Assembly: GCF_016862975.1 (NCBI RefSeq)
Contig: NZ_BONZ01000040.1
Coordinates: 1 to 64,000, forward strand
Direction of reading: 5' to 3'
DNA length: 64,000 nt
Origin: Rugosimonospora africana
GTDB lineage: Bacteria > Actinomycetota > Actinomycetes > Mycobacteriales > Micromonosporaceae
The notes beneath the pieces were generated by a model, which made no database searches, was not told the DNA's origin, and worked only from the letters and a program-made list of their open reading frames with translations. This document shows positions 2,566 through 16,988 of this stretch, piece by piece. A program made the translations under genes and the position numbers. Position 1 is the stretch's first letter, and every line of letters starts with the position of its first letter.

Positions 2566-3840
2566 CTACAGCTCGGGCGGCAGTTCCCAGCCGGCGGAGC
2601 GGGCGGCGTCGCGGACGCGGGCCGCGGTCAGGTCGGGGTCGATGGTGTGCCGGGACGTCACACTCACGCCGGAGACCACGGTGGCGTACCGGTTCGCCGC
2701 GGCCAGCGGTACCCCGTGCGCGGTCGCGACCACGAGCCCGGCGAGATGCGCGTCGCCCGCGCCGGCGGTGCCGGCGACCGACTCGACCGGCAGGGCGGGA
2801 GTGTGGCTGAGGTTGCGCCCGTCCCACGCCCAGCTACCCTGCCGACCGGCCGTCACGACGAGCGACATCGCCGGGTTGGTCGCCGCCAGCCGGCGCACCA
2901 CGGCCTCCACGACGGCGCCGGGCCCGCCGAGACCGCCGGCCGCGCCGAGACCGCCGTCTGCGCCGGCCGCGCCGAGACCGCCGGCCGCAGCGAGACCGCC
3001 GTCTGCGCCGGCCGCGCCGAGACCGCCGTCGCCGGGCCCGCCGAGACCGCCGAGACCGCCGGCCCCGCTCCCGGCCCCCACGGCACCGGCCTCCGCTGCG
3101 CGACCGGCGGACACGGCACCAGCGGACACAGTGCCGGCCGACACAGCGCCGGCTGACACACTGCCGGCGGACACCGTGCCAGCGGCTCCATCCGGGCCGC
3201 TCTCGAGCAGCGCCGTCGCCTCGTCGAGGTTCAGCGCCAGCAGGTCGACACGTCCCAACAGACCGTCGCGCAGCACCTGTTCCCACTCCTGCGACACGAA
3301 CGTCGCCACCCGAAAAGCCTCGGCCGCGGTCGCGAGGTCCAGCAGCGCGGCGCGCGCCGCCACCGGTACCTCCGGCAGGGCCAGCGCGATCGCCCGACCG
3401 CGGTGCGCGTCCAGGACCGGCGCGGCGCGCGCGATGTCGGCCGGTTCGACGCAGTCGCTGGCGGAGCCGGCCGTGGTGATGTTGCCGCCGTCGCCGTTCG
3501 GGTACTGGAAGCAGACCGAGAACAGGGTGGGGCGGGGCGCCATCGCGACCAGGGACATGTCCATGCCCTCGGCGCGCATGGCCGCCATGGCGTCGCGGCC
3601 CGGTGCGTCGTCGCCGACCTTCCCGACCGGTACCACGCGGACCGCCGGGCCGAGCAGCCGCCGTACGTAGTGGCACACGATGTGCAGCTTGCAGTAGTCG
3701 CGCTGGTCGAGCAGTGTGGCGGCCCGGCTCTCCTCACGGCCCAGGGTGCGGTTGCCGGTCAGGGCGAGGAACATCCCCGAGCCGATGCCACCGGTGCCCA
3801 CCACCACCTCGTACGCCGGCGCGTCGTGGCGGCCTGCCAT
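2566..3840 (-). CDS. PfkB-family carbohydrate kinase with a repeat-rich insertion
   Basis: A 424-residue sugar kinase of the ribokinase/PfkB fold that transfers phosphate from ATP to an unknown carbohydrate. The C-terminal signature GTAGAGDAHLAG is present with the catalytic aspartate at residue 363. The N-terminus has a Gly-rich strand-turn (VVVGTGGIGSGMF) and the core is otherwise normal. Between residues about 215 and 312 there is an Ala/Gly/Ser-rich insertion of SAG(T/A/S)V and GLGAAGADGG repeats that ordinary PfkB enzymes lack; without it the protein would have the usual length of about 320. It is the last gene of the seven-gene operon. The ATG at 3840 is chosen; a GTG at 3849 overlaps the upstream stop as GTGA and is equally possible. 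Confidence 0.85.
   Translation of the reverse strand: MAGRHDAPAYEVVVGTGGIGSGMFLALTGNRTLGREESRAATLLDQRDYCKLHIVCHYVRRLLGPAVRVVPVGKVGDDAPGRDAMAAMRAEGMDMSLVAMAPRPTLFSVCFQYPNGDGGNITTAGSASDCVEPADIARAAPVLDAHRGRAIALALPEVPVAARAALLDLATAAEAFRVATFVSQEWEQVLRDGLLGRVDLLALNLDEATALLESGPDGAAGTVSAGSVSAGAVSAGTVSAGAVSAGRAAEAGAVGAGSGAGGLGGLGGPGDGGLGAAGADGGLAAAGGLGAAGADGGLGAAGGLGGPGAVVEAVVRRLAATNPAMSLVVTAGRQGSWAWDGRNLSHTPALPVESVAGTAGAGDAHLAGLVVATAHGVPLAAANRYATVVSGVSVTSRHTIDPDLTAARVRDAARSAGWELPPEL
2905..3195 (-). repeat. Coding repeat array inside the kinase gene
   Basis: Two blocks of tandem codons, one of 15-bp SAG-type units and one of GCCGAGACCGCCG-type units, make up the low-complexity insertion. Reading frame is kept through all units. 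The array probably grew by slippage or unequal recombination. Confidence 0.85.
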
Positions 3841-3845
3841 GGCCG

Positions 3846-4745
3846 TCACCAGCCCACGCCGAGGTCCCACTCGGGATGCTCGCTGATCGGGTGCCGCGCG
3901 GTGTCCACGGTCGCGGTCAGCAGCGTGTCCGGGTGTTCCCGCAGCAGCGTCATCGGGTACTCCGCGGTGACCGGGCCGAACAGCGCCACCCGCAGCGCGG
4001 TCTGTTTCCACGCGCCGGTGTCGCTGAACAGCCGGATCCGTTTCGCCGCAAGGATCTCGGCGAGGCCGAGCGTCACCGACATCGGCGGGACGAACTGGTA
4101 CGCGCCGCCGAACGTGCGTTGGGCGAGCGCGATGACGGTGTCCGGGTTGTTGTCCTGTACCCGTGCGGTCGACGCGCGCAGCCGCGCCACAGACAACGGG
4201 CTGTACGGGTTGCGGCGCGCCTGGTTGTACGCGACGTGCCCGTCCTGCCCCCAGCCGCCGTACACGAGGTCAGCCGGTCGGGCGAGCAGGTCGGCGGAGA
4301 TGGCGGTGATGGTCCCCGGTTCCGGCCAGTGCCGGTGGTGTTCCGGCACGGCGAGCGCCGGGTCGACGGGTCCATAGAACTCGCGCTCCATGAATCCGCG
4401 GAAGCTGTACGGGTGGCTGCGCGGCAGCGGCTTGCCCTCCCAGTCCAGGCACTCGTCCATGTGGAACACCTCGACGTGGGTCAGGCTCATCCGTTCGGCG
4501 TTGACGAGCGCGGTGAACGGCTCGTACCAGCAACTCGGCCCGCACGGCAGGATCGTCCGCAGGGTACGCCCGGCGCGGCCGGCCGCCGCGATCTCGTCGA
4601 CCAGCTCGCGGGCCATGAGCCGGCCCATCTCGGCGCTGTCGCGGCAGATGCGCAGCGCCATCCGGCGGTCCGGGTGGTCGGCCAGCTCGCCGGCCGGAAT
4701 CCGGCACCAGCGCGCCAGATCCTCGGCGGGTATCGGGTCGGTCAT
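3846..4745 (-). CDS. NagB-like sugar-phosphate isomerase/deaminase
   Basis: A 299-residue cytoplasmic enzyme of the glucosamine-6-phosphate deaminase / 6-phosphogluconolactonase fold. The motif HMDECLDW holds the general-base aspartate (D97), and GGWGQDGHVAYN holds the active-site histidine (H170), as in NagB. It is longer than NagB (about 265) and the flanking sequence is divergent, so deamination of GlcN-6-P itself is not assured. Its ATG overlaps the stop of the GH4 gene upstream as ATGA, and the kinase follows directly. The neighbours suggest that it acts on the sugar released or oxidised by this operon. Confidence 0.82.
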   Translation of the reverse strand: MTDPIPAEDLARWCRIPAGELADHPDRRMALRICRDSAEMGRLMARELVDEIAAAGRAGRTLRTILPCGPSCWYEPFTALVNAERMSLTHVEVFHMDECLDWEGKPLPRSHPYSFRGFMEREFYGPVDPALAVPEHHRHWPEPGTITAISADLLARPADLVYGGWGQDGHVAYNQARRNPYSPLSVARLRASTARVQDNNPDTVIALAQRTFGGAYQFVPPMSVTLGLAEILAAKRIRLFSDTGAWKQTALRVALFGPVTAEYPMTLLREHPDTLLTATVDTARHPISEHPEWDLGVGW

Positions 4746-6064
4746 CAGCGCACCTCCGGCAGCCAACGCGATTGGGCGTCGATCATCTCGTCGCACATCC
4801 GCCGGATCTGGTCGAGGTCCAGCAGCGCGGAGGTGAGCCGGTCGAGCGCGACCGCCGAATAGATGAGGTCGCGTGAGCGCTGCAGGTAGGCGGCCACCAC
4901 CGTGTGCTGGTACCCGACGGAGGCGAGGTTGATGCCGGCGCACGGGGCGGGCAGCTCGCCGGCGTGGGTCGGCTGCACTCCGTTCGCGTCGACGAGGCAG
5001 GGCACCTCGACGCAGCAGCCGTCGGGCAGGTTGGTGATCAGTCCGGTGTTGGGCACGTTGCCGTAGATGACCCGCGGTGTGTTCGTGAGCACGGAGTCCA
5101 CGATCCGGGCGGCGTACTCCTCGCTGACCGTGAGCCTTCCGCCTGCGAAGTCCTCGGCGAGCCGTTCCAGCTCCGCCTCGTTGTTGCCCCGGGTGATGTC
5201 GAGGTAGTCCCATCGCTGCGGCAGCAGCGCCGAGACCTGGTCGGGGGTGCGGCGGAAATGCGGGTAGTACTCGGACGCGTGGTGGCTCGACTCGGTCTGG
5301 AAGTAGCCGGTGAGGTTCATGACGGCGGTGCGTACGCTTTCCCGGCCACCGGCGTACCACTCGTCGATCTCGCGCGCGGGCTTCCGGTCGCCCCGGTGGT
5401 AGGCATTGACTGCCTCCCGCAGCTCGGGCAGCGCGTCCCGGCCCCGGTGCTTGAACTCCAGCATCCACGCCTGGTGGTTGATGCCGGCCGCCCGGAACGA
5501 CCACTCGCCGGACTGGTAGCCGGCGATGCTCGCCAGTTCGTCGGCGGTGTGCTGAACCGAGTGGCACAGGCCGGTGACGTGCGCCCCGGCCTGGCCGGCG
5601 AACCAGCAGTTGATGGACATCGGGTTGGCGTAGTTGAGCAGCGGTGCGTCCGGGCACAGGTCGCTCATGTCGGCAATGATGTCGTCGAGCGCCTTCACCG
5701 ACCGCAGGCCCCGGAACACCCCGCCGGGGCCGAGGGTGTCGCCGACGGTCTGGTCCACGCCGTACCGCCGGGGGATCTCCATGTCCACCGCGTACGCGTC
5801 GCGCCCGCCGACCTGGAAGCACACCACCACGAAATCGGCGCCGCGCAGCGCGGTCCGGCGGTCCGTGGTCGGTTCGATCCGGGCCGGCAACCGGTGTGCC
5901 TCCACCAGCCGCCGGGCCAACCGCTCGGTGCGGCGCAGGGACTCCGGGTCGATGTCCATCAGCGCGTACGTCGCGTCCGCGGTGCTCTCGAAGGACAGGA
6001 AGTCGTTCATCAGCTGGAGCGGGAACTCGTACCCGCCCGCTCCGATGATGGCGATGCGGGTCAT
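4745..6064 (-). CDS. Glycoside hydrolase family 4 protein (first copy)
   Basis: A 439-residue NAD- and metal-dependent glycosidase of family GH4, which cleaves glycosides by transient oxidation at C3. Visible marks are the nucleotide-binding IIGAGG at residues 6-11, the metal and substrate motif NYANPM at 144-149, and GLCHS with C167 and H168, which ligate the metal in this family. The anomer and sugar cannot be told from sequence; alpha-glucosidase, alpha-galactosidase and alpha-galacturonidase branches all fit. It is coupled by ATGA overlaps to both neighbours. A second, clearly different GH4 is at 10929-12239. Confidence 0.92.
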   Translation of the reverse strand: MTRIAIIGAGGYEFPLQLMNDFLSFESTADATYALMDIDPESLRRTERLARRLVEAHRLPARIEPTTDRRTALRGADFVVVCFQVGGRDAYAVDMEIPRRYGVDQTVGDTLGPGGVFRGLRSVKALDDIIADMSDLCPDAPLLNYANPMSINCWFAGQAGAHVTGLCHSVQHTADELASIAGYQSGEWSFRAAGINHQAWMLEFKHRGRDALPELREAVNAYHRGDRKPAREIDEWYAGGRESVRTAVMNLTGYFQTESSHHASEYYPHFRRTPDQVSALLPQRWDYLDITRGNNEAELERLAEDFAGGRLTVSEEYAARIVDSVLTNTPRVIYGNVPNTGLITNLPDGCCVEVPCLVDANGVQPTHAGELPAPCAGINLASVGYQHTVVAAYLQRSRDLIYSAVALDRLTSALLDLDQIRRMCDEMIDAQSRWLPEVR

Positions 6065-7152
6065 GCGCTCTCGCTTTCCGATGGCTGGCCGCCGAGCCGC
6101 GGCACCAGCCGCCGGGCGTTGTCGCCGTACACCTTGCGCAGGACGTCATCCGGCAGGTCGAGCCCGGAGATGGTCCACCGGCCGAACAGCGGCGGATCAT
6201 CGTCGGTGTGCGCGAAGCACTCGTCGGCCGTCTCCAGGAACCGGAAGTGCGTCGGGTACGTCTCGCCGGTGTGCGGCACCTCGTCGGTGCCGAACAGCAC
6301 CCGGTCCGGGTGGCGCAGGCACAGCTGCCGTGCGGCGCGCGGCTGCCGGCCCAGCTGCGAGATGCGCGCGGCGATGTCGATGTTCAGGTTCGGGTACGTG
6401 GCCAGCATCCGGTCCACCCAGCCGAGGTTCTCCGCGTAGTTGCCGGCGTGCACCGCCACGAACGTGGTGTCCGGGTGCCCGGACACGACCGCCTCCATCG
6501 CCTCCATCAGCCGTTCGAAGGTGGGGAACCGCGGGCCGTGGAACGCCCAGTCGGGCCGGATGTTCAGCAACTCCAGGAACTCGTTGCGCTCGTCGACCGG
6601 GTCGAAGAACGCCTGCGGGTCGGCGGTGTGCCACCAGATCGGTACCCCCAGCTCCCCGGCGGCCGTCCACATCGGATCGAGCCGCGGGTCGTCGGGCAGC
6701 ACCAGCGTGCCGTCCGCGTCCTCGACCGCCAGGCCGAGGTCCTTCCACACCTTCACCCCGGCGGCCCCCGCCGCGACCGAGTCGGCGAGATTGTCCACCA
6801 GGGCCTGCGGGCCGTCCGGGATCAGTGACCAGTCCACGTGGCAGAATGTCGCGAACCGTCCCGGGTACCGGGCGTCGAACCGGTCGAGGTTGGCCCGCAA
6901 CTCCTCGCCCCACCGGCCGTCGAGGTTCACGAAGCCGTGGACGTTGTACGCCGCCATGGCGGCCAGGAACTCGTCGGCGTCCTCGACCAGGAAGCTGCCC
7001 TCGCGCCCCACCCACGCGGACAGCCAGCGACCCAGGTGGGTGTGCGCGTCGACCGCCGGGAACCGGGCGGACGACACGAAATGCTCGGGCAGCGTGAGAC
7101 GCTGACGGGGTCGGTACTCGCGCAGCGGGATGTCGGCCGCGACCATCTCCAT
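6061..7152 (-). CDS. Amidohydrolase_2-family metal-dependent hydrolase
   Basis: A 363-residue TIM-barrel hydrolase of the amidohydrolase-related family (PF04909 type), which includes sugar-lactone hydrolases and decarboxylases. The metal motif HTHLG is at residues 37-41. Further histidines in WWHTADP and VAVHAGN, and the late aspartate in LFGTDEVP, complete the expected ligand set. An AGGAGG box five bases before the ATG fixes the start. It overlaps the GH4 start downstream as ATGA. The gap to the SMP-30 gene is 29 bp and that gene is also a lactonase type, so the operon holds two candidate lactone hydrolases. Confidence 0.88.
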   Translation of the reverse strand: MEMVAADIPLREYRPRQRLTLPEHFVSSARFPAVDAHTHLGRWLSAWVGREGSFLVEDADEFLAAMAAYNVHGFVNLDGRWGEELRANLDRFDARYPGRFATFCHVDWSLIPDGPQALVDNLADSVAAGAAGVKVWKDLGLAVEDADGTLVLPDDPRLDPMWTAAGELGVPIWWHTADPQAFFDPVDERNEFLELLNIRPDWAFHGPRFPTFERLMEAMEAVVSGHPDTTFVAVHAGNYAENLGWVDRMLATYPNLNIDIAARISQLGRQPRAARQLCLRHPDRVLFGTDEVPHTGETYPTHFRFLETADECFAHTDDDPPLFGRWTISGLDLPDDVLRKVYGDNARRLVPRLGGQPSESESA

Positions 7153-7181
7153 GGACCTCCTGTCGTGGTACCGCCGGTGGA

Positions 7182-8063
7182 CTATCCGGCGAACGTGGCG
7201 GGCGGCAGTCCGGCCACCCCGGGCCGGTACCGGAACACCGATCCGGCCAGCGGTTGCCGGGCGCGCTGGTCGGCGGCCAGGCCCTCGGCGGCGGTGGTGA
7301 TGAACAGGTCGCCGAAGTCCGCGCCGCCGAAGGCCACGCTGGTGACCTGGCTGACCGGGAGCCGGAGCTCGCCGTCGAGCACCCCGCCGGGGGAGTAGCG
7401 GCGCACCCGGCCGCCGCCCCACAGGGCGACCCACAGGAAGCCGTCCCGGTCGATGGCCATCCCGTCCGGCGAGCCGTCCTGGGACGGGAACGCGACCAGC
7501 GTCCGCCGATCGGCGATCGTCCCATCCGTGGGGTCGAAGGCCATCCGGTCGATCGTCGCCTTGCCGGTGTCGACGTAGAACATCTCGATACCCGGCGCCG
7601 ACCAGGCCAGCCCGTTGGAGTTGGTGACGCCGGAGAGCATCTCCGTGACGGTACCGGCGGCGTCGAGCCGGTACAGCGCGCCCGTGCCCGGCGTACCGTC
7701 GTAGGCCAGGGTGCCGGCCCAGAACCGCCCGGCCGGGTCGCACCCGCCGTCGTTGAACCGGGTACCGTCCCGCTGCGCCGGTGCCGCCACGACCGGGCCG
7801 GCCGGGCGCCAGTCGTCGTCGTACGCCGCGAAGCCCCGCTCCACCGCGGCGATCCACCCGCCAGCGCGTCGTGGCGCCACCGCGCCGACCGGTACGCCCA
7901 ACTCCCAGGTGCGGCGCGCCCCACCCACCGGATCCACCGCGTGTACCCGGCCGGCGAGGATGTCCACGAAGTACAACCGCCCGGTACGGGTGTCCCAGCA
8001 CGGCCCCTCGCACAGCTCGCCGGCAGCGGGCACCAGGACGTCCGACTCATCGAGTGTCCTCAT
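7182..8063 (-). CDS. SMP-30/gluconolactonase-family lactonase
   Basis: A 293-residue six-bladed beta-propeller predicted to open a sugar lactone. The family metal ligands can be recognised: glutamate E19 in GELCEGPCW, asparagines in RFNDGGCDP and NSNGLAW, and the aspartate in SPDGMAID. No signal peptide is seen, so it is cytoplasmic. Its ATG overlaps the stop of the zinc dehydrogenase as ATGA, which fits a dehydrogenase making the lactone and this enzyme opening it. The sugar is not known. Confidence 0.9.
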   Translation of the reverse strand: MRTLDESDVLVPAAGELCEGPCWDTRTGRLYFVDILAGRVHAVDPVGGARRTWELGVPVGAVAPRRAGGWIAAVERGFAAYDDDWRPAGPVVAAPAQRDGTRFNDGGCDPAGRFWAGTLAYDGTPGTGALYRLDAAGTVTEMLSGVTNSNGLAWSAPGIEMFYVDTGKATIDRMAFDPTDGTIADRRTLVAFPSQDGSPDGMAIDRDGFLWVALWGGGRVRRYSPGGVLDGELRLPVSQVTSVAFGGADFGDLFITTAAEGLAADQRARQPLAGSVFRYRPGVAGLPPATFAG

Positions 8064-9013
8064 TGGACGATCACCGCCTTGACCGGTTCCATCGCCCCGC
8101 CGGCCAGCGCCAGGAAGACCTCCCGGGACTGCTCCAACCCGACCGGAGTCGTCCAGTCCAGGTCCAGCTCGGCCGCGAGCGCCAGAGCGGTCGCGAAGTC
8201 GTCGGGTGAGTACGCGAACGAACCCACCACCCGCTTCTCCTGGCGCACCAGGGCATTGCCGTCGAACCCTGGGTCCGGGTCCGCCAGGCCGAGCCACACG
8301 CAGGTGCCGCCTGGCCGTACCCGGTCGATCCCGGCCCGCCGGGTGACCGGCGAACCGACCGCGTCGATCACGGCGTCGAACTCGCCGGCCAGCTCCGGTT
8401 CGGTGGACGTGGCCCCGAGCCGCCGCGCCAGCTCCAGCCGCTGCGGCGACCGGTCGACCACGGTGACGTCGGCCAGGCCGTGCCGGCGCGCGACCAGCAG
8501 GCAGACCAGGCCGATGGTGCCGGCTCCGACGATCGCGACCCGGCCGGGGGCGGTGGCGTGAACCCCTCCGCGCGGGTCGAGCTGGTGCCACGCGTGCACC
8601 GCGTTGGCCAGCGGCTCGACCATCGCCGCCGTCTGCCATGACATCTCCGGCGGAAGCTCGTGCAGGGAGGTCGCCGGGACCACGACGGACTCCGCGAACC
8701 CGCCCGGCCGGTGCACGCCGAGCAGTTCCCGGTTCCGGCACAGTTGCGGGCGGCCGCTCCGGCACAGGTCGCACTGCCCGCAGCTGACGAGCGGGTTCAC
8801 CACGACCCGCCGGCCCTCCGGCGTGGTACCGGCGAACTCGTGCCCCATGACCAGCGGCGGCTTACGGAACCCGGGCTGGCGGAAGCCGTGCAGTTCGCTG
8901 CCGCAGATGCCGGCCGCGCGCACGTCGAGCAGCACGTCACCGGCGTCCGGCCGGGGCCGGTCGACGTCCTGGAGTTCGACCTCACCGGGGCCGGTGAACA
9001 CCAGTGCCCTCAT
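8060..9013 (-). CDS. Zinc-dependent medium-chain alcohol/polyol dehydrogenase
   Basis: A 317-residue MDR dehydrogenase like sorbitol, galactitol or threonine dehydrogenases. Catalytic zinc ligands are C37 and H58/E59 (GHE). The structural zinc lobe is C78, C81, C84 and C92. The NAD-binding motif GAGTIG follows in the second half. A GGGAG box eight bases before the ATG supports the start. It is the second gene of the operon, separated from the SDR by a tandem repeat, and is ATGA-coupled to the lactonase. Oxidation of a sugar or polyol hydroxyl is likely; the exact substrate is open. Confidence 0.92.
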   Translation of the reverse strand: MRALVFTGPGEVELQDVDRPRPDAGDVLLDVRAAGICGSELHGFRQPGFRKPPLVMGHEFAGTTPEGRRVVVNPLVSCGQCDLCRSGRPQLCRNRELLGVHRPGGFAESVVVPATSLHELPPEMSWQTAAMVEPLANAVHAWHQLDPRGGVHATAPGRVAIVGAGTIGLVCLLVARRHGLADVTVVDRSPQRLELARRLGATSTEPELAGEFDAVIDAVGSPVTRRAGIDRVRPGGTCVWLGLADPDPGFDGNALVRQEKRVVGSFAYSPDDFATALALAAELDLDWTTPVGLEQSREVFLALAGGAMEPVKAVIVQ

Positions 9014-9039
9014 GCGTGTTTCTCCCGTCGTGGTCTGAA

Positions 9040-9117
9040 GGGTTCGGGCATCACAGGGTCGGACATCACAGGGTCGGACATCACAGGGTCGGGCGTCACA
9101 GGGCGTCACAGGGCTCA
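9040..9117. repeat. 15-bp tandem repeat downstream of the SDR stop codon
   Basis: Units of GGGTCGGACATCACA (9056-9070, 9071-9085, a variant at 9086-9100, shorter copies on either side) fill the gap between two operon genes. Read on the coding strand each unit contains TGTGA, and the SDR's own stop codon is the first of these. The array therefore looks like duplication of the gene end. Confidence 0.92.
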
Positions 9118-9900
9118 CATCGCGGTCAGCTGCCCGCCGTCCACCACGATCGCCGTGCCGGTGATGAACGAGGCGTCGTCGGAGGCGAGGAACGCGTACG
9201 CGGCGGCGACCTCGTCGGGGCGGCCGGTGCGGCGCAGCGGGATCTTCTGCTCGGCGTACCCGGCGGCGAAACCGTCGTCCAGGTCGCTCGCGATCTGTGC
9301 GTTCAACGGCGTCTCGATGTACCCGGGACACAGCGCGTTGACCCGGATGCCGTACCGGCCCAACTCCACCGCCATCGTCGTCGTCAGGCCCAGCACCGCG
9401 GCCTTCGACGCGTTGTAGTGCGCGTAGTCCGCCTCGCCGGCGAGCCCGTTGATGGAGGACATGTTCACGATCGAGCCGCCGGTGCCCTGCGCCACCAGCA
9501 CCCGCGCGGTGTGTTGGGCGACCAGGAACATGCCGCGCAGGTTGACCGCCAGCAGCCGGTCCCAGTGGTGTGGCGCGATGTCGAGGAACGGCTCGCGCCA
9601 CGCTGTGCCGGCGTTGTTGGCGAGCACGTCGATGCCGCCGAGGGCAGCGGCGGCGTCGCGGACCAGCCGCCCCGCCTCCGCCTCGTCGCTGACGTCGGCC
9701 GCGGTACCGGCGAGGTCGGCCGCCGTGTCGGTGACACCGCCGACCTCAGCCAGCCGGGCGAGCGCCGCCGCGACCTCGCCGGGATCGAGACCGCCGATGA
9801 AGACCCGGGCGCCTTCCTCCAGGAAGCGCCGGGCCGCCGCCTCGCCGATGCCGCTGCTGCCGCCGCTGACCAGTACGCGCCTTCCGCGCAGCCCACGCAT
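9115..9900 (-). CDS. Short-chain dehydrogenase/reductase (SDR), first gene of the sugar operon
   Basis: A 261-residue classical SDR. The cofactor motif GGSSGIG is at residues 13-19, NNAG follows, and the catalytic serine (MSSINGL), Y162 and K166 (YNASK) are all present. The C-terminal end FITGTAIVVDGGQ is typical of glucose/sugar dehydrogenase-like SDRs. A GGGGAGAG stretch supports the ATG at 9900. It is the promoter-proximal gene of the operon that ends with the kinase at 2566, and is divergent from the IclR gene at 10087. With the zinc dehydrogenase it supplies two oxidation steps. Confidence 0.92.
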   Translation of the reverse strand: MRGLRGRRVLVSGGSSGIGEAAARRFLEEGARVFIGGLDPGEVAAALARLAEVGGVTDTAADLAGTAADVSDEAEAGRLVRDAAAALGGIDVLANNAGTAWREPFLDIAPHHWDRLLAVNLRGMFLVAQHTARVLVAQGTGGSIVNMSSINGLAGEADYAHYNASKAAVLGLTTTMAVELGRYGIRVNALCPGYIETPLNAQIASDLDDGFAAGYAEQKIPLRRTGRPDEVAAAYAFLASDDASFITGTAIVVDGGQLTAM

Positions 9901-9976
9901 GACTCTCCCCGCATGGCATTCCCGGGTTCTGGGCGCCGGGCCGTCCGACACTGCTGCGACGGTTCGCACGACCGTC

Positions 9977-10005
9977 CGATATACTGAACGCCATTCGCTA
10001 TTTCG
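9977..10005. promoter_or_regulatory. Candidate IclR operator and -10 box in the divergent promoter
   Basis: The gap between the SDR and IclR starts contains an imperfect inverted repeat, CGATATA at 9977-9983 and TATTTCG at 9999-10005. TATACT at 9980-9985 is a good -10 box for the IclR gene, so a protein bound to the repeat would cover it. Only one plausible site was found, so this is weak. Confidence 0.4.
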
Positions 10006-10086
10006 ACACCAAACCTAACGACGGGCTCTCGTCCTGTCAAAGGTCGCTCAACGCCTTCGTTCACCTGAGTTTCCCGGGGGTATGAG

Positions 10087-10860
10087 TTGCCGCGCAGCGT
10101 CCCCGCCGCGAGTCGGGCCCTGGACATCCTCGAACTGTTTCTGCAGCAGCCGCTGCTGTCCGCCGCCGAGGTGGTCAGCCGGGCCGGGCTCGCCCGGACG
10201 ACTGCGCACGAGCTGCTCGTCACGCTCGTGGACCGCCGGTACCTGGTCCCGGTGCCCGGGCAGCCCACCCGGTATCGGCTCGGCGTGCGCCTGTTCCAGC
10301 TCGGCAGCGTGTTCGCCGACCAGATCGACCTGGCCCGGGAGGCGCAACTGGCCGCGAACGACGTCGCCGCCGCGTGCGCCGAAACGGTGCACGTCGCCGT
10401 CCGGGAGGGCCGCGACGTCATCTACATCGCCCGGGTGGACAGCACCCATCCGGTACGCATGGTGTCGGCGGTCGGCCGTCACCTGCCGGCACACTGCACC
10501 GGCGTCGGCAAGATGCTGCTGTCCGGCCTCGCGGCGGAAGACTTCGACGCGCTGTACCCGCGGGGGCAGAAGCTGCCCGCGATGACGCGCGACAGCATCA
10601 CGTCGGTGACCCGGCTGAAGTCCGTCCTCAAGCGGATCCGGCAGGACGGGCTGGCCTTCGACGACGGCGAGTCCAGCGAGGACGTCCACTGTGTCGCGGC
10701 GGGCGTGCGCGACCAAACCGGCGCGATAGTCGCCTCGATGAGCGTGTCCGTGCCGACGTCCCGGTGGAACGACAAGACCCGGGCCCGGCTGTCGGACCTG
10801 GTGCGCGACGGCGCCGCGCGGCTGTCCGACAACCTGGGCCACCGGCCGGGAGAAGGCTAG
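10087..10860 (+). CDS. IclR-family transcriptional regulator
   Basis: A 257-residue regulator with an N-terminal winged helix (residues about 5-65, LSAAEVVSRAGLARTTAHEL) and a C-terminal IclR effector domain. The start is a TTG: an in-frame TGA at 10066-10068 excludes anything further upstream, and a CGGGGG stretch lies just before it. IclR proteins usually bind small carbon-source metabolites and control adjacent catabolic genes. This one faces away from the seven-gene sugar operon and is its likely regulator. Confidence 0.9.
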   Translation: MPRSVPAASRALDILELFLQQPLLSAAEVVSRAGLARTTAHELLVTLVDRRYLVPVPGQPTRYRLGVRLFQLGSVFADQIDLAREAQLAANDVAAACAETVHVAVREGRDVIYIARVDSTHPVRMVSAVGRHLPAHCTGVGKMLLSGLAAEDFDALYPRGQKLPAMTRDSITSVTRLKSVLKRIRQDGLAFDDGESSEDVHCVAAGVRDQTGAIVASMSVSVPTSRWNDKTRARLSDLVRDGAARLSDNLGHRPGEG

Positions 10861-10892
10861 CCGTCTCTTCGCCGGCAATCCGTCCGCCCGCG

Positions 10893-10909
10893 CCGCGGCC
10901 GTGCCGCGG
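10893..10909. terminator. Terminator-like hairpin between convergent genes
   Basis: CCGCGGC and GCCGCGG form a seven-pair stem around a three-base loop, between the IclR stop and the GH4 stop. There is no T-run, as usual at this GC content. Confidence 0.4.
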
Positions 10910-10928
10910 GTGTTCCCGGGGAAGGCGC

Positions 10929-12239
10929 TCACCGGACCGGCGCGCATGCCCGCAGCGGTTCGGGGATGAGGTCGCCGTGCGCCTTCATCATCGCGTCGCA
11001 CATGTCCCAGATGTCGTCGACCCGGAGCGTCGCCGACGCGTTCGGATCCATCATCACCGCCTGCCGTACCATCCGCGCATCGTCGGACAGCGCCGCCCGG
11101 ACGGTCAGCTCGCACACCGCGAGGAACGACGTGTTGAGCGCGGAACACTGCGGCGGCAGCGCGCCGACATGGTGCGGATGCAACCCGAGACCGTCCACTG
11201 TGGCCGGTACCTCGACCCCGGCGCCGTGCGGCAGGTTGGTGATGAGGTCGCGGTTGGCCACGTTCGCGTGGATGATCCGCGGCGTGCCGGTCACCATCGA
11301 GTGGATGACCTGCGGGGCGTACTCGGTGGCGCTGTGCTCCAGCGGTACCACCTCATCGGCGGCCAGCAGCGCCCGGGTCTGCTCGTACTCGGCCACGTTG
11401 CCTTCGCTGATGCCGAGGTACGTATCGACGGGGATGCGCAGCCGCTGCACCTCACGTTCGTCGTGCAGGTACCACGGCACGTACTCGGAGGAGTGTTCGC
11501 TGGTCTCGGTGGGGTAGTAGCCCAGCCGGCGGTACATGTCCACCCGTACCCGGCGGCGCAGCTCCGGGTCGGCGGCGATGCGCTCGTCCAGGCGCGGGTA
11601 CAGGCTCTCGCCCCGGTGCTCCCAGCGCAGCAGCCACGCCTGGTGGTTGACGCCGGCCGCCCGGTACTCGGTCTCCGCGAGCGGTGCACCGACCAGCTCG
11701 CAGAGCCCGGAGACCGTCCAGTACACGCTGTGGCACAGGCCGACCGCCTTCAGCCGCGGCGCGATCTCGGACAGCCACCACACGTTCATCGCCATCGGGT
11801 TGGTGTAGTTGAGCAGCCACGCTTCCGGGCACACCGCCATCATGTCCTCGGCGATCCCGCGCAGCACCGGGAACGTGCGCAGCGCCCGGAACACGCCGCC
11901 CACGCCGAGCGTGTCCGCGATCGTCTGGCGCACGCCGAACGACTTCGGCACCTCGAAGTCCACCCGGGTCGCGTCGATGCCGCCGACCTGAACCATGTTG
12001 ATGACGAAGTCGGCGCCCTCCAGCGCGGTACGCCGGTCGAGCGAGGCGGTGATGGTCGGGTTCACGTTCAGCTGGGCCGCGGCCTGCCGGGCGATGCCCT
12101 CCGCGGTCGCCAGCCGGTCGGGGTCGATGTCGTGCAGGGCGATGCGTACGTCGCCCAGTTCCGGGTAGCCGAAGATGTCCGCGAGCAGCTGCCGGGTGAA
12201 GACCACGCTTCCCGCGCCGACAAAGGTCACCGTCGTCAT
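10929..12239 (-). CDS. Glycoside hydrolase family 4 protein (second copy)
   Basis: A 436-residue GH4 glycosidase. It has the nucleotide motif FVGAGS at residues 6-11, NYTNP from residue 144 and GLCHSVYW with C169. Sequence near the N-terminus (ELGDVRIALHDIDPDRL) resembles alpha-galactosidase/alpha-glucosidase members. It differs throughout from the first GH4 at 4745-6064, so the two probably act on different linkages or residues of one substrate rather than being a recent duplication. It is the last gene of the ABC transporter operon. A GGAGGG box lies about 11 bases before the ATG. Confidence 0.93.
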   Translation of the reverse strand: MTTVTFVGAGSVVFTRQLLADIFGYPELGDVRIALHDIDPDRLATAEGIARQAAAQLNVNPTITASLDRRTALEGADFVINMVQVGGIDATRVDFEVPKSFGVRQTIADTLGVGGVFRALRTFPVLRGIAEDMMAVCPEAWLLNYTNPMAMNVWWLSEIAPRLKAVGLCHSVYWTVSGLCELVGAPLAETEYRAAGVNHQAWLLRWEHRGESLYPRLDERIAADPELRRRVRVDMYRRLGYYPTETSEHSSEYVPWYLHDEREVQRLRIPVDTYLGISEGNVAEYEQTRALLAADEVVPLEHSATEYAPQVIHSMVTGTPRIIHANVANRDLITNLPHGAGVEVPATVDGLGLHPHHVGALPPQCSALNTSFLAVCELTVRAALSDDARMVRQAVMMDPNASATLRVDDIWDMCDAMMKAHGDLIPEPLRACAPVR

Positions 12240-12259
12240 GTTGTTCCATTCCCTCCGGT

Positions 12260-12295
12260 GGTTGATGGGGCTCAGCCGGTTGATGGGGCTCAGCC
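12260..12295. repeat. 18-bp tandem duplication at the permease stop codon
   Basis: On the coding strand GGCTGAGCCCCATCAACC occurs twice in a row. The first copy contains the permease stop TGA (12292-12290), and the second reproduces it downstream. It fills most of the gap to the GH4 gene. Confidence 0.93.
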
Positions 12296-13135
12296 CTTCA
12301 CGGCGCTGGACGCGAGCGACCGGATGAACGTCCGCTGCGCGGCCAGGAACGCGATGAGCACGGGCAGTACCGCGATGAGGTTGCCGGCCATCACGGCCGA
12401 CCACTCGGTGCGGTGCTGTCCCTGGAAGGTGGCCAGTCCGAGCTGCAGGGTGTAGTTGTGGTCGTTGTTGATGGCGATCAGCGGCCAGGTGAGGTCGTTC
12501 CAGGTGGCCAGGAACGTCAGGACCGCCACGGTGCCCAGCGCCGGTCGCGCCATCGGCACCACGACGTGCCACAGCGTGCGCAGCCGCGAGCAGCCGTCCA
12601 TCCACGCGGCCTCCTCGACCTCGCGCGGCAGGGAGAGGAAGAACTGCCGGAACAGGAACACCGCGAGCGGGGTGACCAGGGACGGCACCATGAGGGCGCC
12701 GAGAGTGTCGACCAGCCCGAGGTCCTTCATGATGAGGAACGTCGGAATCATGGTGATCTGGAACGGGATCACCAGGGTGCCGAGCATCAACGCCAGCAGC
12801 GCCCGCGAGCCGCCGAACCTCAGCCGGGCGAACGCGTACCCGCCGAGGATCCCGAACACCAGGTTCCCGATGACGACCACCACCGCCACGATGGCGGAGT
12901 TGAGGAACCAGCGCGGGAACAGTGCGTTGTCCAGCACGTACCGGTAGCCGTCGAGGTGCAGCGAGTGCGGGATGATGGTCGGCGGGAACCGGTTGATCTG
13001 CGCGTTGCTCATGAACGAGCTGAGCACCAGCCACACCAGCGGCAGGCCGAACAGCAGCGACACCGGCGCCAGCACGAAGTGCCACGGGCTGAACGGCAGC
13101 CACCTGCGGCGCCTGTGGACCGGCAGTGTGGTCAT
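12290..13135 (-). CDS. Carbohydrate ABC transporter permease (MalG-like)
   Basis: A 281-residue inner-membrane subunit with six predicted helices. The cytoplasmic coupling loop EEAAWMDGCSRLRTLWHVVVP carries the EAA-type consensus of CUT1 sugar transporters. Its ATG overlaps the stop of the partner permease as ATGA. No ATPase gene is present in the locus, so a shared multi-sugar ATPase elsewhere (MsiK in other actinomycetes) is presumably used. Confidence 0.93.
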   Translation of the reverse strand: MTTLPVHRRRRWLPFSPWHFVLAPVSLLFGLPLVWLVLSSFMSNAQINRFPPTIIPHSLHLDGYRYVLDNALFPRWFLNSAIVAVVVVIGNLVFGILGGYAFARLRFGGSRALLALMLGTLVIPFQITMIPTFLIMKDLGLVDTLGALMVPSLVTPLAVFLFRQFFLSLPREVEEAAWMDGCSRLRTLWHVVVPMARPALGTVAVLTFLATWNDLTWPLIAINNDHNYTLQLGLATFQGQHRTEWSAVMAGNLIAVLPVLIAFLAAQRTFIRSLASSAVKG

Positions 13136-14082
13136 CGCCGGCTCACCTTCCTCTCGTCGCCCCGGCGGATCAGGCGGATGCCGATGCTGAGCACCAGGAG
13201 GCCGAACGCCAGGACGTAGGCACCCGCCGCGGCGTATCCGGCGTTGAACACCTCGAACGCCTGCTGCCACACGAAGAACACCACGACCGTGGTGGACTCC
13301 AGCGGTCCGCCGCGGGTCGTCACGAACACCATGTCGAAGACCTGCAACGATTGCAGCGTCTCCCAGATGAGCAGGAACACCGTCATCGGTCGCAGCGCGG
13401 GCCACACCACGAACCGGAAGGTGGCGCCGCGCCCCGCCCCGTCGATGGAGGCCGCCTCGACCAGTTCGGCGGGGATGTCCTGCAGCCCGGCGAGGTAGAC
13501 CACCACACAGAACCCGACGCCGCTCCACAACGCGATGAGCACCAGCAGGTACAGCGCCTGGCTCTTGTCCGCGAAGAAGCCCTGTGCCGGGATGTCGAAC
13601 CAGTGCAGCACCGCGTTGGCGAGCCCGAAGTGCGAGTCGAAGATGAACGAGAACAGCACGCCCTGCGCGGTCGCGGACACCACGAACGGCACGAACACCA
13701 GCGTCCGGTACAGGCCGATGAGGCGCACCTTGCGGTTGAGAAGCAGCGCCAGGCCGAGGCCGCCGGCGATGCTCAGCGGCACGAACAGGGCCGTGTAGAT
13801 GAGGGTGTGCCCGACGGCCGCGCGGAAGTTGGGATCGTGGCTGAGTGTTTCGTAGTTCTTCAGCCCCACCCACTGGGCGGGCGTGATCAGATCGCTGCTC
13901 TGCAACGAGAGCACCAGAGACCACACCATCGGCACGATGCCGAGCCCGAGAATGATGGCCACCGACGGCAGCACGTAGGACCAGGCGGTGCTCGCCTCGC
14001 CGTACCTGCGGCGCCGCAGTGACCGGGCCGGATCGCGCACCGGCTCCCGGTTCACCACGGCAACCCTGAACTGGGTCTTCAC
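13132..14082 (-). CDS. Carbohydrate ABC transporter permease (MalF-like)
   Basis: A permease of about 316 residues with six helices and an EAA loop (EAASIDGAGRGATFRFVVWP). It forms the transmembrane pair with the downstream permease. The start is uncertain. GTG at 14082, 11 bases after the binding-protein stop, gives the full N-terminus, but no strong ribosome site is visible and GTG codons slightly further in are possible. It lies between the solute-binding protein and the second permease, the usual CUT1 order. Confidence 0.9.
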   Translation of the reverse strand: MKTQFRVAVVNREPVRDPARSLRRRRYGEASTAWSYVLPSVAIILGLGIVPMVWSLVLSLQSSDLITPAQWVGLKNYETLSHDPNFRAAVGHTLIYTALFVPLSIAGGLGLALLLNRKVRLIGLYRTLVFVPFVVSATAQGVLFSFIFDSHFGLANAVLHWFDIPAQGFFADKSQALYLLVLIALWSGVGFCVVVYLAGLQDIPAELVEAASIDGAGRGATFRFVVWPALRPMTVFLLIWETLQSLQVFDMVFVTTRGGPLESTTVVVFFVWQQAFEVFNAGYAAAGAYVLAFGLLVLSIGIRLIRRGDERKVSRR

Positions 14083-14093
14083 GATCGCGGCCG

Positions 14094-15425
14094 CTACGGG
14101 GTGGCCAGCGCGGCGTTGGCGTTCTTGGCGAGTTCGCTCAGCGCGCCCTCCGGAGTGCCCTGGCCGAGCAGCATCTTGACGATCGCCTGCCCCAGCGGTT
14201 CGGAGATCTGCGGGTACTTGCGGATCGTCGGGCGGGTCTTCGCGTAGGCGAGCGCGTCGGAGAACGGTTTCAGGCCCACGGTCGTGTCGACGTGCTGTTT
14301 CCACTCGGCCAGGTTGGCGGTGCTCTTGCGCAGCGGGAGGCTGCCGGCCTCGGTGGCCCACTGCACGTCCTGGTCGCCGGACGTGAGGAACTTGAGGAAC
14401 TCCACGGCCGCCTTGACCTTCGCCTTCCCGTTGTCGAAGACCGTCCAGGTGTCCGGGCCGGCGATGGTGACCCGCTTCCCGCTGAATGTGGGCAGCGGAA
14501 CGACACCGTAGTCGGACTTGGCCTCGATGAACACCGGCAGCTCCCACGGCCCGGTCGGGATCATCGCCATCTTGCCGCTGGTGAACACCTGGTACATCTG
14601 GTCGCTGCCGGGCTTGGTGTCGGCGTACACCGACTTGTCCGCGCCGAGCTGGTGGACGACCTGGAGCGCCTTGAGGCCGGAGTCGTTGTCGAAACCGATC
14701 TTCTTGCCCGATCCGTCCACAATGGACCCACCAAGGTCCCAGATGAGCGGGTAGATGCGCCAGACGCAGTCCTCGTCGCCAGCGGCGGGCCAGCCGGTGC
14801 CGAAGGTGCCCTTGGCCGGGTCGGTCAGCCGTTTCGCGGTGGCGACGTACTCGTCCCAGGTCCAGTCGCCGGTCGGCTCGGGCACGCCGGCCGCGGCGAA
14901 GATCTTCTTGTTGTACGCGACGCACAGGTTGTCGATGAGCGCGGGGAAGCCCCGTACCTTCCCGTCGACGGTCACCGCGTCGCGGGCGGCGGGGTAGTAG
15001 TCGTCCCAGTTCACGTCGGGCTGCGTGATGAACGGCTGGAGGTTGGCCACCTTCGGGCTGCGCGCCACGTTGGCGATGTCCGGACCGAAGATGTACGCGA
15101 TGTCGGGGTACTTGCCCGAGGCCAGCGCGGTGGTGATTTTCTGGAGCATGCTGTCGGCCAGGACGCCGCCGCTGCTCGCGTTCACCTTGATTTTCGGGTT
15201 CTTGGCGTTGAACGCGGCGACGATTTTGTCGAGAGTGTCCTTGCCCTGGTTTTCCTGGCCGTGCCACATCGTGATGGTCACGGTGCCGTCGGCGCTCGCG
15301 CCGTCGTCGTCCGAGCCGCAGGCGCCCAGCAGCGGGCTCATGCCCGCCAGTGCGGCCAGGCCCAGACCGTTGCGGAGCAGTTCGCGCCGAGTCGGCATGC
15401 GTCCAGAGGGTTGTCGTACGGTCAC
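14094..15425 (-). CDS. Sugar ABC transporter solute-binding lipoprotein
   Basis: A 443-residue extracytoplasmic binding protein of the CUT1 class. The leader has twin arginines (TRRELLRNGL) followed by a hydrophobic stretch and the lipobox LLGAC, with the lipid-modified cysteine at residue 36. The mature part begins with an Asp/Gly linker, then VTITMWHGQENQ, typical of MalE-like proteins. A GTG start at 15425 is supported by GGGGAGG eight bases upstream. It is the first gene of the operon, 185 bp downstream of a consensus promoter. Its ligand is presumably the glycoside attacked by the GH4 enzymes. Confidence 0.92.
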   Translation of the reverse strand: MTVRQPSGRMPTRRELLRNGLGLAALAGMSPLLGACGSDDDGASADGTVTITMWHGQENQGKDTLDKIVAAFNAKNPKIKVNASSGGVLADSMLQKITTALASGKYPDIAYIFGPDIANVARSPKVANLQPFITQPDVNWDDYYPAARDAVTVDGKVRGFPALIDNLCVAYNKKIFAAAGVPEPTGDWTWDEYVATAKRLTDPAKGTFGTGWPAAGDEDCVWRIYPLIWDLGGSIVDGSGKKIGFDNDSGLKALQVVHQLGADKSVYADTKPGSDQMYQVFTSGKMAMIPTGPWELPVFIEAKSDYGVVPLPTFSGKRVTIAGPDTWTVFDNGKAKVKAAVEFLKFLTSGDQDVQWATEAGSLPLRKSTANLAEWKQHVDTTVGLKPFSDALAYAKTRPTIRKYPQISEPLGQAIVKMLLGQGTPEGALSELAKNANAALATP

Positions 15426-15617
15426 CTTCGGGCCTCCCCTTCTGAGGGCTGCGGGATAGCGGTCTGTCGTGGGAGCGGAAACCCTTCCTGCCCTGCCCGG
15501 CTCCGGTGGGGGATAGAGCGGGTTCGGGTCGCGGCGGCCGATGGGTGACGCCGCGACGGATCAATGAGGCGCAGCTGTGTTCGCCATGTCGAACAGCGTC
15601 CGAGTTGGCGTCATCGG

Positions 15618-15646
15618 AATCTAACTGGACGGTTTTCGAGTGTCAA
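15618..15646 (-). promoter_or_regulatory. Consensus promoter of the sugar transporter operon
   Basis: On the minus strand TTGACA (15646-15641), a 17-bp spacer and TAGATT (15623-15618) form a near-perfect housekeeping promoter. A TGCGCA-containing site at 15651-15660 abuts the -35 box. Transcription would begin near 15611, leaving a leader of about 185 nt before the binding-protein gene. Confidence 0.75.
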
Positions 15647-15650
15647 CGAT

Positions 15651-15660
15651 ATGTGCGCAT
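15651..15660. promoter_or_regulatory. TGCGCA operator next to the transporter promoter
   Basis: ATGTGCGCAT is a palindrome with one flaw and lies beside the -35 box of the transporter operon. The same core occurs at 15786-15795 and 16989-17018. Binding by the DeoR protein at 17080 is inferred. Confidence 0.5.
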
Positions 15661-15785
15661 CGAGTGCGGATACCGCGCAACCGCGCGCGGTCAAGCGGTC
15701 GATCCTCGTGGCACCGAGCGTCGCTGCGCACCCCGCTCGCTGTCACGCCTAGAAAGTGGACAACTTCGCGCGGCACTTGAGCATC

Positions 15786-15795
15786 TATGCGCATA
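15786..15795. promoter_or_regulatory. TATGCGCATA palindrome
   Basis: A perfect 10-bp palindrome 17 bp upstream of the GTG of the decayed kinase fragment. It shares its core with sites near the transporter and SIS promoters, and probably is a leftover operator of the lost kinase gene. Confidence 0.5.
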
Positions 15796-15811
15796 CTGCC
15801 ATGCTGAGTGC

Positions 15812-15935
15812 GTGCCCGACCAGCCCCGAATTCCCGCACCTTCCGCACGTGGCGAGGACCGGCCGCTGGATCTCCTCGTCGTCGGCGACGCCAACCCGGA
15901 TCTGATCCTCAGCGGCGGAGACGTGGTGCGGGTAC
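15812..15935 (+). pseudogene. Decayed 5' end of a PfkB/ribokinase-family kinase gene
   Basis: From a GTG at 15812 about 40 codons read into RPLDLLVVGDANPDLILSGG, which is the standard first strand and substrate motif of actinobacterial PfkB sugar kinases. Homology stops after GDVV, and the frame then runs through unrelated basic residues to a stop near 16057, with no ATP-site signature. A full kinase needs about 300 residues. The fragment is divergent from the transporter operon and convergent with the SIS gene, where a kinase gene would be expected. I read it as a remnant of a deletion. The rest of 15426-16025 holds only promoter and operator sequence. Confidence 0.7.
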
Positions 15936-16025
15936 ACCGAACGCCGGCACGCCCGAACACGCGCACGCCGAAACGCAAACGGTGGCGACAGCGGCCGGCA
16001 ACCCGGGGATCGCCGGCCGGCCGGA

Positions 16026-16916
16026 TCAGATCGTCAGTGCCACGTCGTCCAGGATGACCGCGCGGGTGAGGTTGTGCGGCGTGTCCGGGTCGAGTCCGCG
16101 CGACTCGGCGAGGGCCACCGCCGCGCGCTGGGCCACGACGAGCGAAGCCAGGGGATCGGTGCCCAGGTCGACCGCTGTGGCACCGACCGAGCGGACCTGC
16201 TCGGCCAGGGCCGGGTCGAGCGGACCGAGGGACCACACGACGGTACCGGGGCCGGACACGCTGATCGGCCCGTGCCGGTACTCCATGGCGGGGTACGCCT
16301 CGGTCCACGCCTGCGCCGCCTCGCGCAGCTTCAGCGCGGCCTCGCTGGCAAGCCCGACCGTCCACCCACGACCGACGAATGTCCACTGTGACGTCGCGGC
16401 GGGATCGACCGGCAGGTCAACGGTGAGCGCGCGCTCGGCGTCCACGATGGACGGCTCGATGTCGTCGCCGGCCGCGGCGCGCAGCAGCGTCAGGGCCGTG
16501 GTGGCGAACCGGGTCTGGACCACAGACCGCTCATCGGCGAACGGCAGCGGCACCACGGCGTCCGCCGCGGCGGCCACCGGCCCGTCGGGCACGGCGGTCA
16601 GCACCACGGTGCGCATGCCGGACGTCCGGCGCAGCAGTTCGGCGACCTCCGTCGTGGTGCCCGAGCGAGAGATTGCCACCAGCACGTCATACTGCCGCCG
16701 GGGCATCTCGGACGCCGCGAACGCGTCTGTCCGGCCGTGCCCGGCGTTCTCCCGCAGCGCGGCAGCCGCCTGCGCCATGTAGAGGGAGGTGCCACAGCCG
16801 ACGATGCAGACGTCGTCACCGGGCGCGGGCAGGATGCCGGAGACGTCATGGGCGAGGGCGGCGGCCCGTCGCCACGTGCTCGGCTGGGTAGCGATCTCGT
16901 CCGCAGTAATGCTCAT
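16026..16916 (-). CDS. SIS-domain sugar-phosphate isomerase/deaminase-like protein
   Basis: A protein of about 296 residues made of two SIS sugar-binding domains, like the isomerase half of GlmS and AgaS/FrlB-type deaminases. Visible marks are VGCGTSLYMAQ and AISRSGTTTEV, the phosphosugar loops of the first domain, and the second-domain segment PAMEYRHGPIS. No glutaminase domain is present. The ATG at 16916 is chosen over 16958 because a TTGACA -35 box (minus strand, 16952-16947) lies between them. Context suggests a ketose/aldose or amino-sugar phosphate step in the sugar locus. Confidence 0.88.
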   Translation of the reverse strand: MSITADEIATQPSTWRRAAALAHDVSGILPAPGDDVCIVGCGTSLYMAQAAAALRENAGHGRTDAFAASEMPRRQYDVLVAISRSGTTTEVAELLRRTSGMRTVVLTAVPDGPVAAAADAVVPLPFADERSVVQTRFATTALTLLRAAAGDDIEPSIVDAERALTVDLPVDPAATSQWTFVGRGWTVGLASEAALKLREAAQAWTEAYPAMEYRHGPISVSGPGTVVWSLGPLDPALAEQVRSVGATAVDLGTDPLASLVVAQRAAVALAESRGLDPDTPHNLTRAVILDDVALTI

Positions 16917-16988
16917 GACTGGATGCTCGCCCGCCGAATTTCGCGCTGTCAAGCGCATCGGGTCCCTTCATCGGCAAACCCGCGCAAC

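Follow-up and report, generated by a model that had tools for sequence, protein, structure and literature searches.

A NagB-like enzyme and PfkB kinase pair conserved across phyla in a Rugosimonospora africana locus with a putative role in galactosaminide catabolism

Introduction

The described systems that come closest to the gene cluster of Rugosimonospora africana reported here are the glucosamine-6-phosphate (GlcN6P) deaminase NagB and the Aga/Gam system of Escherichia coli, the oxidative chitin (ong) pathway of Pseudoalteromonas and the non-phosphorylative L-rhamnose/L-fucose route II (LRA1–LRA6). In E. coli NagB, Glu148 acts in the ring-opening relay, PTGGT forms the phosphate loop, and Arg172 and Lys208 bind the phosphate. 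The Aga/Gam system handles galactosamine and N-acetylgalactosamine (GalNAc) by means of a phosphotransferase system (PTS), AgaS and KbaYZ. In the ong pathway the pyridoxal phosphate (PLP) enzyme OngC deaminates 2-amino-2-deoxygluconate (PMC9537276). FpGalNase, a GH36 galactosaminidase of Flavonifractor plautii, removes galactosamine once GalNAc is deacetylated (PMC10981661). GatZ interconverts tagatose-6-phosphate and fructose-6-phosphate, and AraD epimerises C4 by a retro-aldol reaction of the same kind (PMC11907403). The cluster itself occupies positions 2566 to 9900, minus strand, of a stretch of 64,000 nucleotides (contig NZ_BONZ01000040.1 of assembly GCF_016862975.1, positions 1 to 64,000), referred to below as the window. 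A first-pass annotation had read it as seven genes whose products oxidise a rare sugar and go on to phosphorylate and isomerise the resulting open acid. Here we show that the conserved heart of the locus is a pair formed by a NagB-like protein and a PfkB-family kinase, and we tentatively assign the locus to the catabolism of an alpha-linked galactosaminide.

Results

The NagB-like putative sugar-phosphate deaminase/isomerase (3846..4745) and the PfkB-family sugar kinase (2566..3849; PF00294, 1.6e-21; GAGD motif) are encoded next to each other on the minus strand. To find relatives, a scan of one genome per species was run with a NagB-like protein alignment; 140 relatives were confirmed, of which the best 80 were studied. 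Neighbourhood counts cover 85 loci (L- and G-numbers are labels of loci and genomes). The neighbourhoods are related by descent, and co-occurrence counts and Fisher tests are descriptive. Open reading frames in high-GC loci were called mechanically, antisense clusters of such frames being dropped there by overlap, and contig ends conceal some neighbours. The best 80 relatives belong to at least 10 phyla and are 58–82% identical in the matched part; a further locus (L036) reaches 55%. Both genes occur together in 71 of the 85 loci, with pfkB mostly directly downstream, and the phyla carrying the pair include Actinomycetota, Armatimonadota, Chloroflexota, Acidobacteriota, Bacteroidota, Bacillota and Spirochaetota, among others. 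The short-chain dehydrogenase (SDR) and the zinc-dependent dehydrogenase (ZnDH) accompany a GH4 gene in five loci only (the window, G087, Micromonospora globispora, L035 and L066), and among the studied loci the SMP-30 lactonase gene is confined to the window and M. globispora. Because the NagB-like/PfkB pair recurs while SDR, ZnDH and SMP-30 seldom do, the kinase and the NagB-fold enzyme constitute the core of the locus and the oxidative genes are accessory.

In the family to which the window genome belongs the operon is rare: a NagB-like relative is present in 5 of 151 genomes, two of them, besides the window, with at least 75% identity. All seven genes are kept in M. globispora (75–87% identity), where an AraD-like gene lies upstream and genes for an aldose epimerase and a FAH-type hydrolase follow downstream. 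The G087 genome, from the family of the window genome, retains the order SDR-ZnDH-amidohydrolase-GH4-NagB-PfkB at 71–82% identity, and only SMP-30 is absent from its otherwise collinear locus. Since the order is kept in both genomes it is not due to chance. In a sample of the class of the L132 genome the NagB-like protein was found in 2 of 291 genomes, and its context offers nothing new.

The NagB-like protein scored 67.6 bits (1e-18) against the nagB model TIGR00502, well below the cut-off of 236.9, and remained under every curated NagB model. Its AlphaFold2 model (pLDDT 94) has GlcN6P deaminases as best structural matches (TM-score about 0.8), and 6-phosphogluconolactonases match clearly worse. 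The equivalents of Asp72, Asp141, His143, Arg172 and Lys208 of E. coli NagB (D97, D168, H170, R210 and K247) are invariant in 35 sequences, and a Q-x-R-R motif (QARR) is likewise invariant in the NagB-like proteins. Gln (Q175) takes the place of Glu148 throughout the 35 close sequences, and the PTGGTP phosphate loop has become PCGPSC (in the 35 sequences, PCGP and then S, A, K, T or M). The NagB fold and the kept catalytic residues suggest deaminase/isomerase chemistry on an anionic, probably phosphorylated aldose. More distant relatives in small actinobacterial genomes (L037–L045) have an LPVGP loop, are sometimes present in two copies and have partly lost the Arg172 and Lys208 equivalents; judged from their sequences they are a separate NagB-like subfamily.

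Genes next to the pair were inspected for hints at the substrate. For the GH36 proteins adjoining the pair in L080 and L115, FpGalNase is the only close solved relative (7e-72; next match 6e-14 for L080), 8x1b having nearly the same sequence. Genes of the AraD-like class II aldolase family, which score in the L-ribulose-5-phosphate 4-epimerase subfamily, are found in about 15 loci, and gatZ lies directly 3′ of pfkB in L062 and L070. The AraD-like genes are enriched (16 in 84 neighbourhoods, p ~2e-6 even if 12 such genes per 5 Mb are assumed), a value that counts the weaker links L035, L119 and L072 and is uncorrected for phylogeny. Aldose 1-epimerase genes are present in 11 loci, and in L077, L093, L097 and L112 the module is bordered by SIS, GatZ-like, kinase and aldolase genes of the Aga type. 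One Paenibacillus locus contains GH20 and GH42-like genes. A 280-aa Paenibacillus protein has a sub-threshold PIG-L match (8e-4), and the member of its cluster in L103 has no Pfam match. A 735-aa secreted protein of L080 was considered as a GalNAc deacetylase and set aside, as a solved relative was not found.

Several of these neighbours could equally belong to a non-PTS tagatose-6-phosphate route for D-galactose, in which GH4 would free galactose, PfkB would form galactose-6-phosphate and the NagB-like enzyme would isomerise it without deamination. The aldose 1-epimerase, GH36 and AraD/GatZ-like genes are compatible with such a route, both GH4 proteins of the window exceed an alpha-galactosidase cut-off, and the replacement of Glu148 by Gln might suit a non-deaminating isomerase. 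Galactokinase (GalK) was detected in every cultured genome tested, while in four metagenome-assembled genomes that carry the pair no GalK exceeds the cut-off. The route leaves unexplained the likeness of GH36 to a galactosamine-specific enzyme and the amino-sugar-type genes nearby, and we know of no galactose-6-phosphate isomerase with a NagB fold. We consider the galactose route unlikely.

Canonical sugar routes were also looked for elsewhere in module-bearing genomes. GalK is present in 14 of 18 of them, AraA in 13 of 19 and canonical NagB over cut-off in 11 of 19. The window genome has its sole araA match at G000:C86, away from the locus, and neither an AraA-type isomerase nor GalK, GalT or GalE is encoded among the genes of the locus. 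As canonical GalK, AraA and NagB are mostly present, the module probably acts on some other sugar, which weakens galactose, arabinose and glucosamine as main substrate and leaves room for paralogous routes. Loss of GalK or AraA was dropped as a substrate clue, both being present in most genomes. The minimal operons of Rhodococcus and Mycobacterium comprise an amino-acid-type permease, the NagB-like protein, PfkB, aldose epimerase and an AraD-like protein, and they invite an L-arabinose-type reading: PfkB would form a pentose-5-phosphate, the NagB-like enzyme would convert it to L-ribulose-5-phosphate, and the AraD-like epimerase, fitting by its subfamily score, would act last. Canonical AraA in the 13 genomes mentioned, that of the window included, and GatZ and Aga-type neighbours suited to hexoses and not to pentoses make this route very unlikely.

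The oxidative genes comprise an aldose-1-dehydrogenase-like SDR (9115..9900; adh_short_C2 2e-66; above the cut-off of an NCBIfam glucose 1-dehydrogenase subfamily and also matching L-rhamnose 1-dehydrogenase Lra1), the zinc-dependent medium-chain ZnDH (8060..9013; ADH_N, ADH_zinc_N and Glu_dehyd_C domains; no curated equivalog reached) and a lactonase of the SMP-30/gluconolactonase family (7182..8063; SGL 9.5e-79, 264.9 bits at a gathering score of 26.3). Locus L035 has a UlaG-like hydrolase in place of SMP-30 and also a FAH-type hydrolase, the latter assigned from sequence; a FAH-type gene is present in L056 as well. Genes of the PLP-dependent D-serine dehydratase family, the class of OngC, occur in L066, L035 and L091 (in L091 by similarity only). 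The window genome has one distant homologue of the PLP enzyme (37%), outside the locus, no FAH match was obtained in the window, and a sugar-acid dehydratase is absent from the operon genes. Since relatives exchange the lactonase type and add FAH-type or PLP enzymes, the oxidative genes are not a random assembly.

A primarily oxidative operon, as the first-pass annotation had it, would have the SDR and ZnDH take a rare sugar via a lactone to an acid before PfkB and the NagB-like enzyme act. The recurrence of SDR and ZnDH with GH4 in the five loci named above speaks for it, as do the exchangeable lactonase (SMP-30 or UlaG-like) and the FAH-type hydrolase of L035 and L056, which recall the non-phosphorylative L-fucose and L-rhamnose routes. 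Most loci with the kinase and the NagB-like gene lack SDR and ZnDH, however, G087 lacks SMP-30, the operon has no sugar-acid dehydratase, and NagB-fold deaminases use aldose phosphates. The NagB-like protein resembles sugar-phosphate deaminases and not lactonases, and the neighbours suggest that a galacto-type amino sugar enters an aldose-to-ketose-phosphate route. The oxidative side of that proposal is meaningful, but oxidation as the core of the pathway is not supported, and we judge an operon of this kind to be quite unlikely.

Both GH4 glycosidases of the locus are alpha-galactosidase-like and, by model score, resemble the MelA type, exceeding the cut-off of model NF011657 (486 bits). The one within the operon (GH4b, 4745..6064, minus strand; GLCHSV motif; Glyco_hydro_4 3e-48, Glyco_hydro_4C 1.2e-50) scored 509 bits and the second (GH4a, 10929..12239, minus strand; collinear in G087, 85%) 564 bits. 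An Amidohydro_2 metallohydrolase (6061..7152; PF04909 1.2e-22) is conserved from actinobacteria to Clostridia and Spirochaetes, and its metal ligands (DxHxH, K134, H175, H235 and D290) are invariant across phyla. No close characterised or solved relative of it was found, the best weak matches being aminocarboxymuconate semialdehyde decarboxylases; the assignments as lactonase or deacetylase were dropped on these grounds, and the earlier count of two candidate lactone hydrolases is doubtful.

The functional locus extends beyond the seven genes. As genes for a regulator, another GH4 enzyme, an ABC transporter and a SIS protein (9974–16958) are conserved alongside in G087, the unit had been drawn too narrowly. 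An IclR-family regulator is encoded divergently (10087..10860, plus strand; IclR_C 1.6e-42; collinear in G087 and M. globispora). On the minus strand follow GH4a, two permeases of a carbohydrate ABC transporter, namely permease 2 (12290..13135; collinear with an 85% identical gene of G087, family judged from sequence) and permease 1 (13132..14060, 5′ end approximate; collinear in G087), a solute-binding lipoprotein (14094..15425; collinear 76% identical gene in G087) and a SIS-domain sugar-phosphate isomerase/deaminase-like protein (16026..16958; SIS 2.3e-11; collinear in G087). The latter matches GlmS, GlmD and NagB-II weakly and agaS_fam with 2.2e-5 only. With the exception of SMP-30, every gene from SIS through PfkB keeps its place in G087, at 57–85% identity.

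Upstream of the SDR gene lies an operator-like 16-bp palindrome, GTTCAGTATAtCGgAC (9974..9989, minus strand), found once in the window (0.15 matches expected); the G087 copy has one mismatch and the M. globispora copy none. Adjoining it is a second conserved box, TGTCGAAATnnCGAA (9994..10008, minus strand), of the form TCGAAAT-nn-CGAA, which is present in G087 and reads TTTCGAAATTACGAA in M. globispora. Both elements precede SDR in the window, G087 and M. globispora, and the locus may be under IclR control.

Family searches confirmed the seven-gene set on the minus strand at the positions first assigned. Four of the six junctions overlap (ZnDH/SMP-30 and AmH/GH4 by ATGA, with AmH denoting the metallohydrolase, GH4/NagB-like by TGATG, NagB-like/PfkB by GTGA), so that the repeated ATGA overlaps described before apply literally at two junctions and loosely at four. 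SDR/ZnDH and SMP-30/AmH do not overlap (gaps of about 100 and 29 nt), and about four copies of a 15-bp tandem repeat fill positions 9039–9103 of the former gap. In-frame tandem repeats with units of 15, 27, 30 and 45 bp (2915–3185) give PfkB a lineage-specific Ala/Gly-rich insert of about 90 aa that its relatives lack, and the GAGD motif is undamaged.

Some further observations were made around the locus and its relatives. The operon is flanked, by eye, by genes for a HIBADH-type dehydrogenase (938–1897) and a TetR-like regulator (1919–2559), neither of which is conserved with the operon; positions 1–90 of the window hold 15 exact copies of the hexamer TGTCGC. A 103-aa orphan protein without Pfam match (c103) is encoded 3′ of PfkB in many loci (L058, L063, L080, L096 and others), its cluster being present in 26. 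It was considered as an alternative mutarotase, as it never occurs with aldose epimerase in 68 loci (23 versus 11, Fisher p = 0.012, uncorrected for phylogeny and multiple tests), but its model is a generic NIPSNAP/ABM dimeric barrel and the idea stays weak. In Paenibacillus L096 (13288–17049) a 1253-aa protein with weak GH42 and lacto-N-biose phosphorylase-like domains adjoins the module. On a Vibrio nigripulchritudo plasmid (L053, 13944–14840) a distant NagB-like relative stands amid nucleoside hydrolase, adenosine deaminase, ribokinase and NupC genes, with transketolase and transaldolase close by, and Haloarcula plasmids L054 and L055 have two NagB-like matches each, adjoining aldolase, GlpR and ABC transporter genes.

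Discussion

The gene set, its collinearity, the conservation of the NagB-like/PfkB pair across phyla, the predicted fold and the conserved catalytic residues are established by the data above. On this basis we favour, tentatively and with the substrate read from gene neighbours, an IclR-controlled catabolism of an alpha-linked glycoside of a galacto-configured amino sugar, most likely a galactosaminide. The ABC transporter would import the alpha-galactosaminide, one or both GH4 enzymes would release the amino sugar and PfkB would phosphorylate it. The NagB-like enzyme would then open the ring and, by deamination and isomerisation, yield a ketose phosphate, most likely tagatose-6-phosphate, which in relatives an AraD-like or GatZ-like C4-epimerase could convert to fructose-6-phosphate. 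Substrate, order of kinase and deaminase, product and IclR control are all our inference. In an accessory branch SDR, ZnDH and SMP-30 may turn part of the amino sugar via a lactone into an amino-aldonate, a branch that some relatives would lengthen by an enzyme of the PLP-dependent deaminase class and a FAH-type hydrolase.

A number of points weigh against a galactosaminide. The change of the ring-opening glutamate to Gln and the altered phosphate loop set the NagB-like protein apart from known deaminases, we know of no GH4 enzyme acting on amino sugars, and the amidohydrolase is left unexplained. GH36 relatives are found in 6 loci and resemble FpGalNase only distantly. A C4-epimerase and the PLP enzyme are absent from the locus in both the window and G087, the AraD-like genes of the window genome lying elsewhere (C86, beside araA, and C34). 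Galactose is an equally good fit for aldose epimerase, alpha-galactosidase-like GH4 and C4-epimerases, and no single neighbour is diagnostic of the substrate. Fungal galactosaminogalactan was discarded as substrate, GH114 being present in 7 of 24 genomes; no GH114 galactosaminidase was found in the window genome.

Neither the literature searched nor the curated family models yielded a described pathway with this gene set, which agrees with the earlier statement that no standard route fits. It is possible, if still doubtful, that the pair represents an apparently undescribed cross-phylum module in which PfkB would make galactosamine-6-phosphate (GalN6P), a new NagB-fold deaminase would convert it to tagatose-6-phosphate and an AraD-like or GatZ-like epimerase would lead to glycolysis, with a GH4 galactosaminidase of the redox type and a parallel oxidative branch to amino-aldonates coupled to it in some actinobacteria and Chloroflexota. 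A kinase/NagB-like pair with orthologues of 55–82% identity in many phyla, under all curated cut-offs tested and with no described function found, implies a widespread missed step of sugar catabolism. If galactosamine is the substrate, free-living soil and sediment bacteria would have a PTS-independent route to a common amino sugar, amino-sugar specificity would be added to GH4, and many annotations as glucosamine-6-phosphate deaminase would have to be corrected.

Among the known systems, Aga/Gam shares with the module the expected conversion of GalN6P to tagatose-6-phosphate and NH3, and in several phyla the module has SIS and aldolase-family genes of the Aga type next to it. In contrast to Aga/Gam, the module uses an ABC or amino-acid-type permease instead of a PTS, PfkB as proposed amino-sugar kinase, a NagB-fold enzyme outside AgaI/AgaS and a C4-epimerase in place of the kinase/aldolase exit. 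Where Aga/Gam has a galactosamine-specific PTS or permease with an AgaS-family deaminase, the window has the ABC transporter and the NagB-like enzyme. FpGalNase, the closest solved relative of the L080 and L115 proteins, belongs to GH36, whereas the window has GH4. The ong pathway has in common an oxidised amino sugar and, in three related loci, the fold-III PLP deaminase family, but it lacks aldose oxidation enzymes, lactonase, GH4 and the NagB-like/PfkB pair. With route II the operon shares an SDR aldose dehydrogenase, a lactonase and a second dehydrogenase, and its relatives share the FAH-type hydrolase; the missing sugar-acid dehydratase sets the operon apart, and GH4 and the NagB-like/PfkB pair are alien to route II. 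From the GlcN6P deaminase NagB the NagB-like protein differs by an identity of about 25%, the change of Glu148 to Gln and of PTGGTP to PCGPSC, the QARR motif, its regular PfkB partner and its coexistence with a true NagB, while it shares the fold, the catalytic Asp and His and the equivalents of Arg172 and Lys208.

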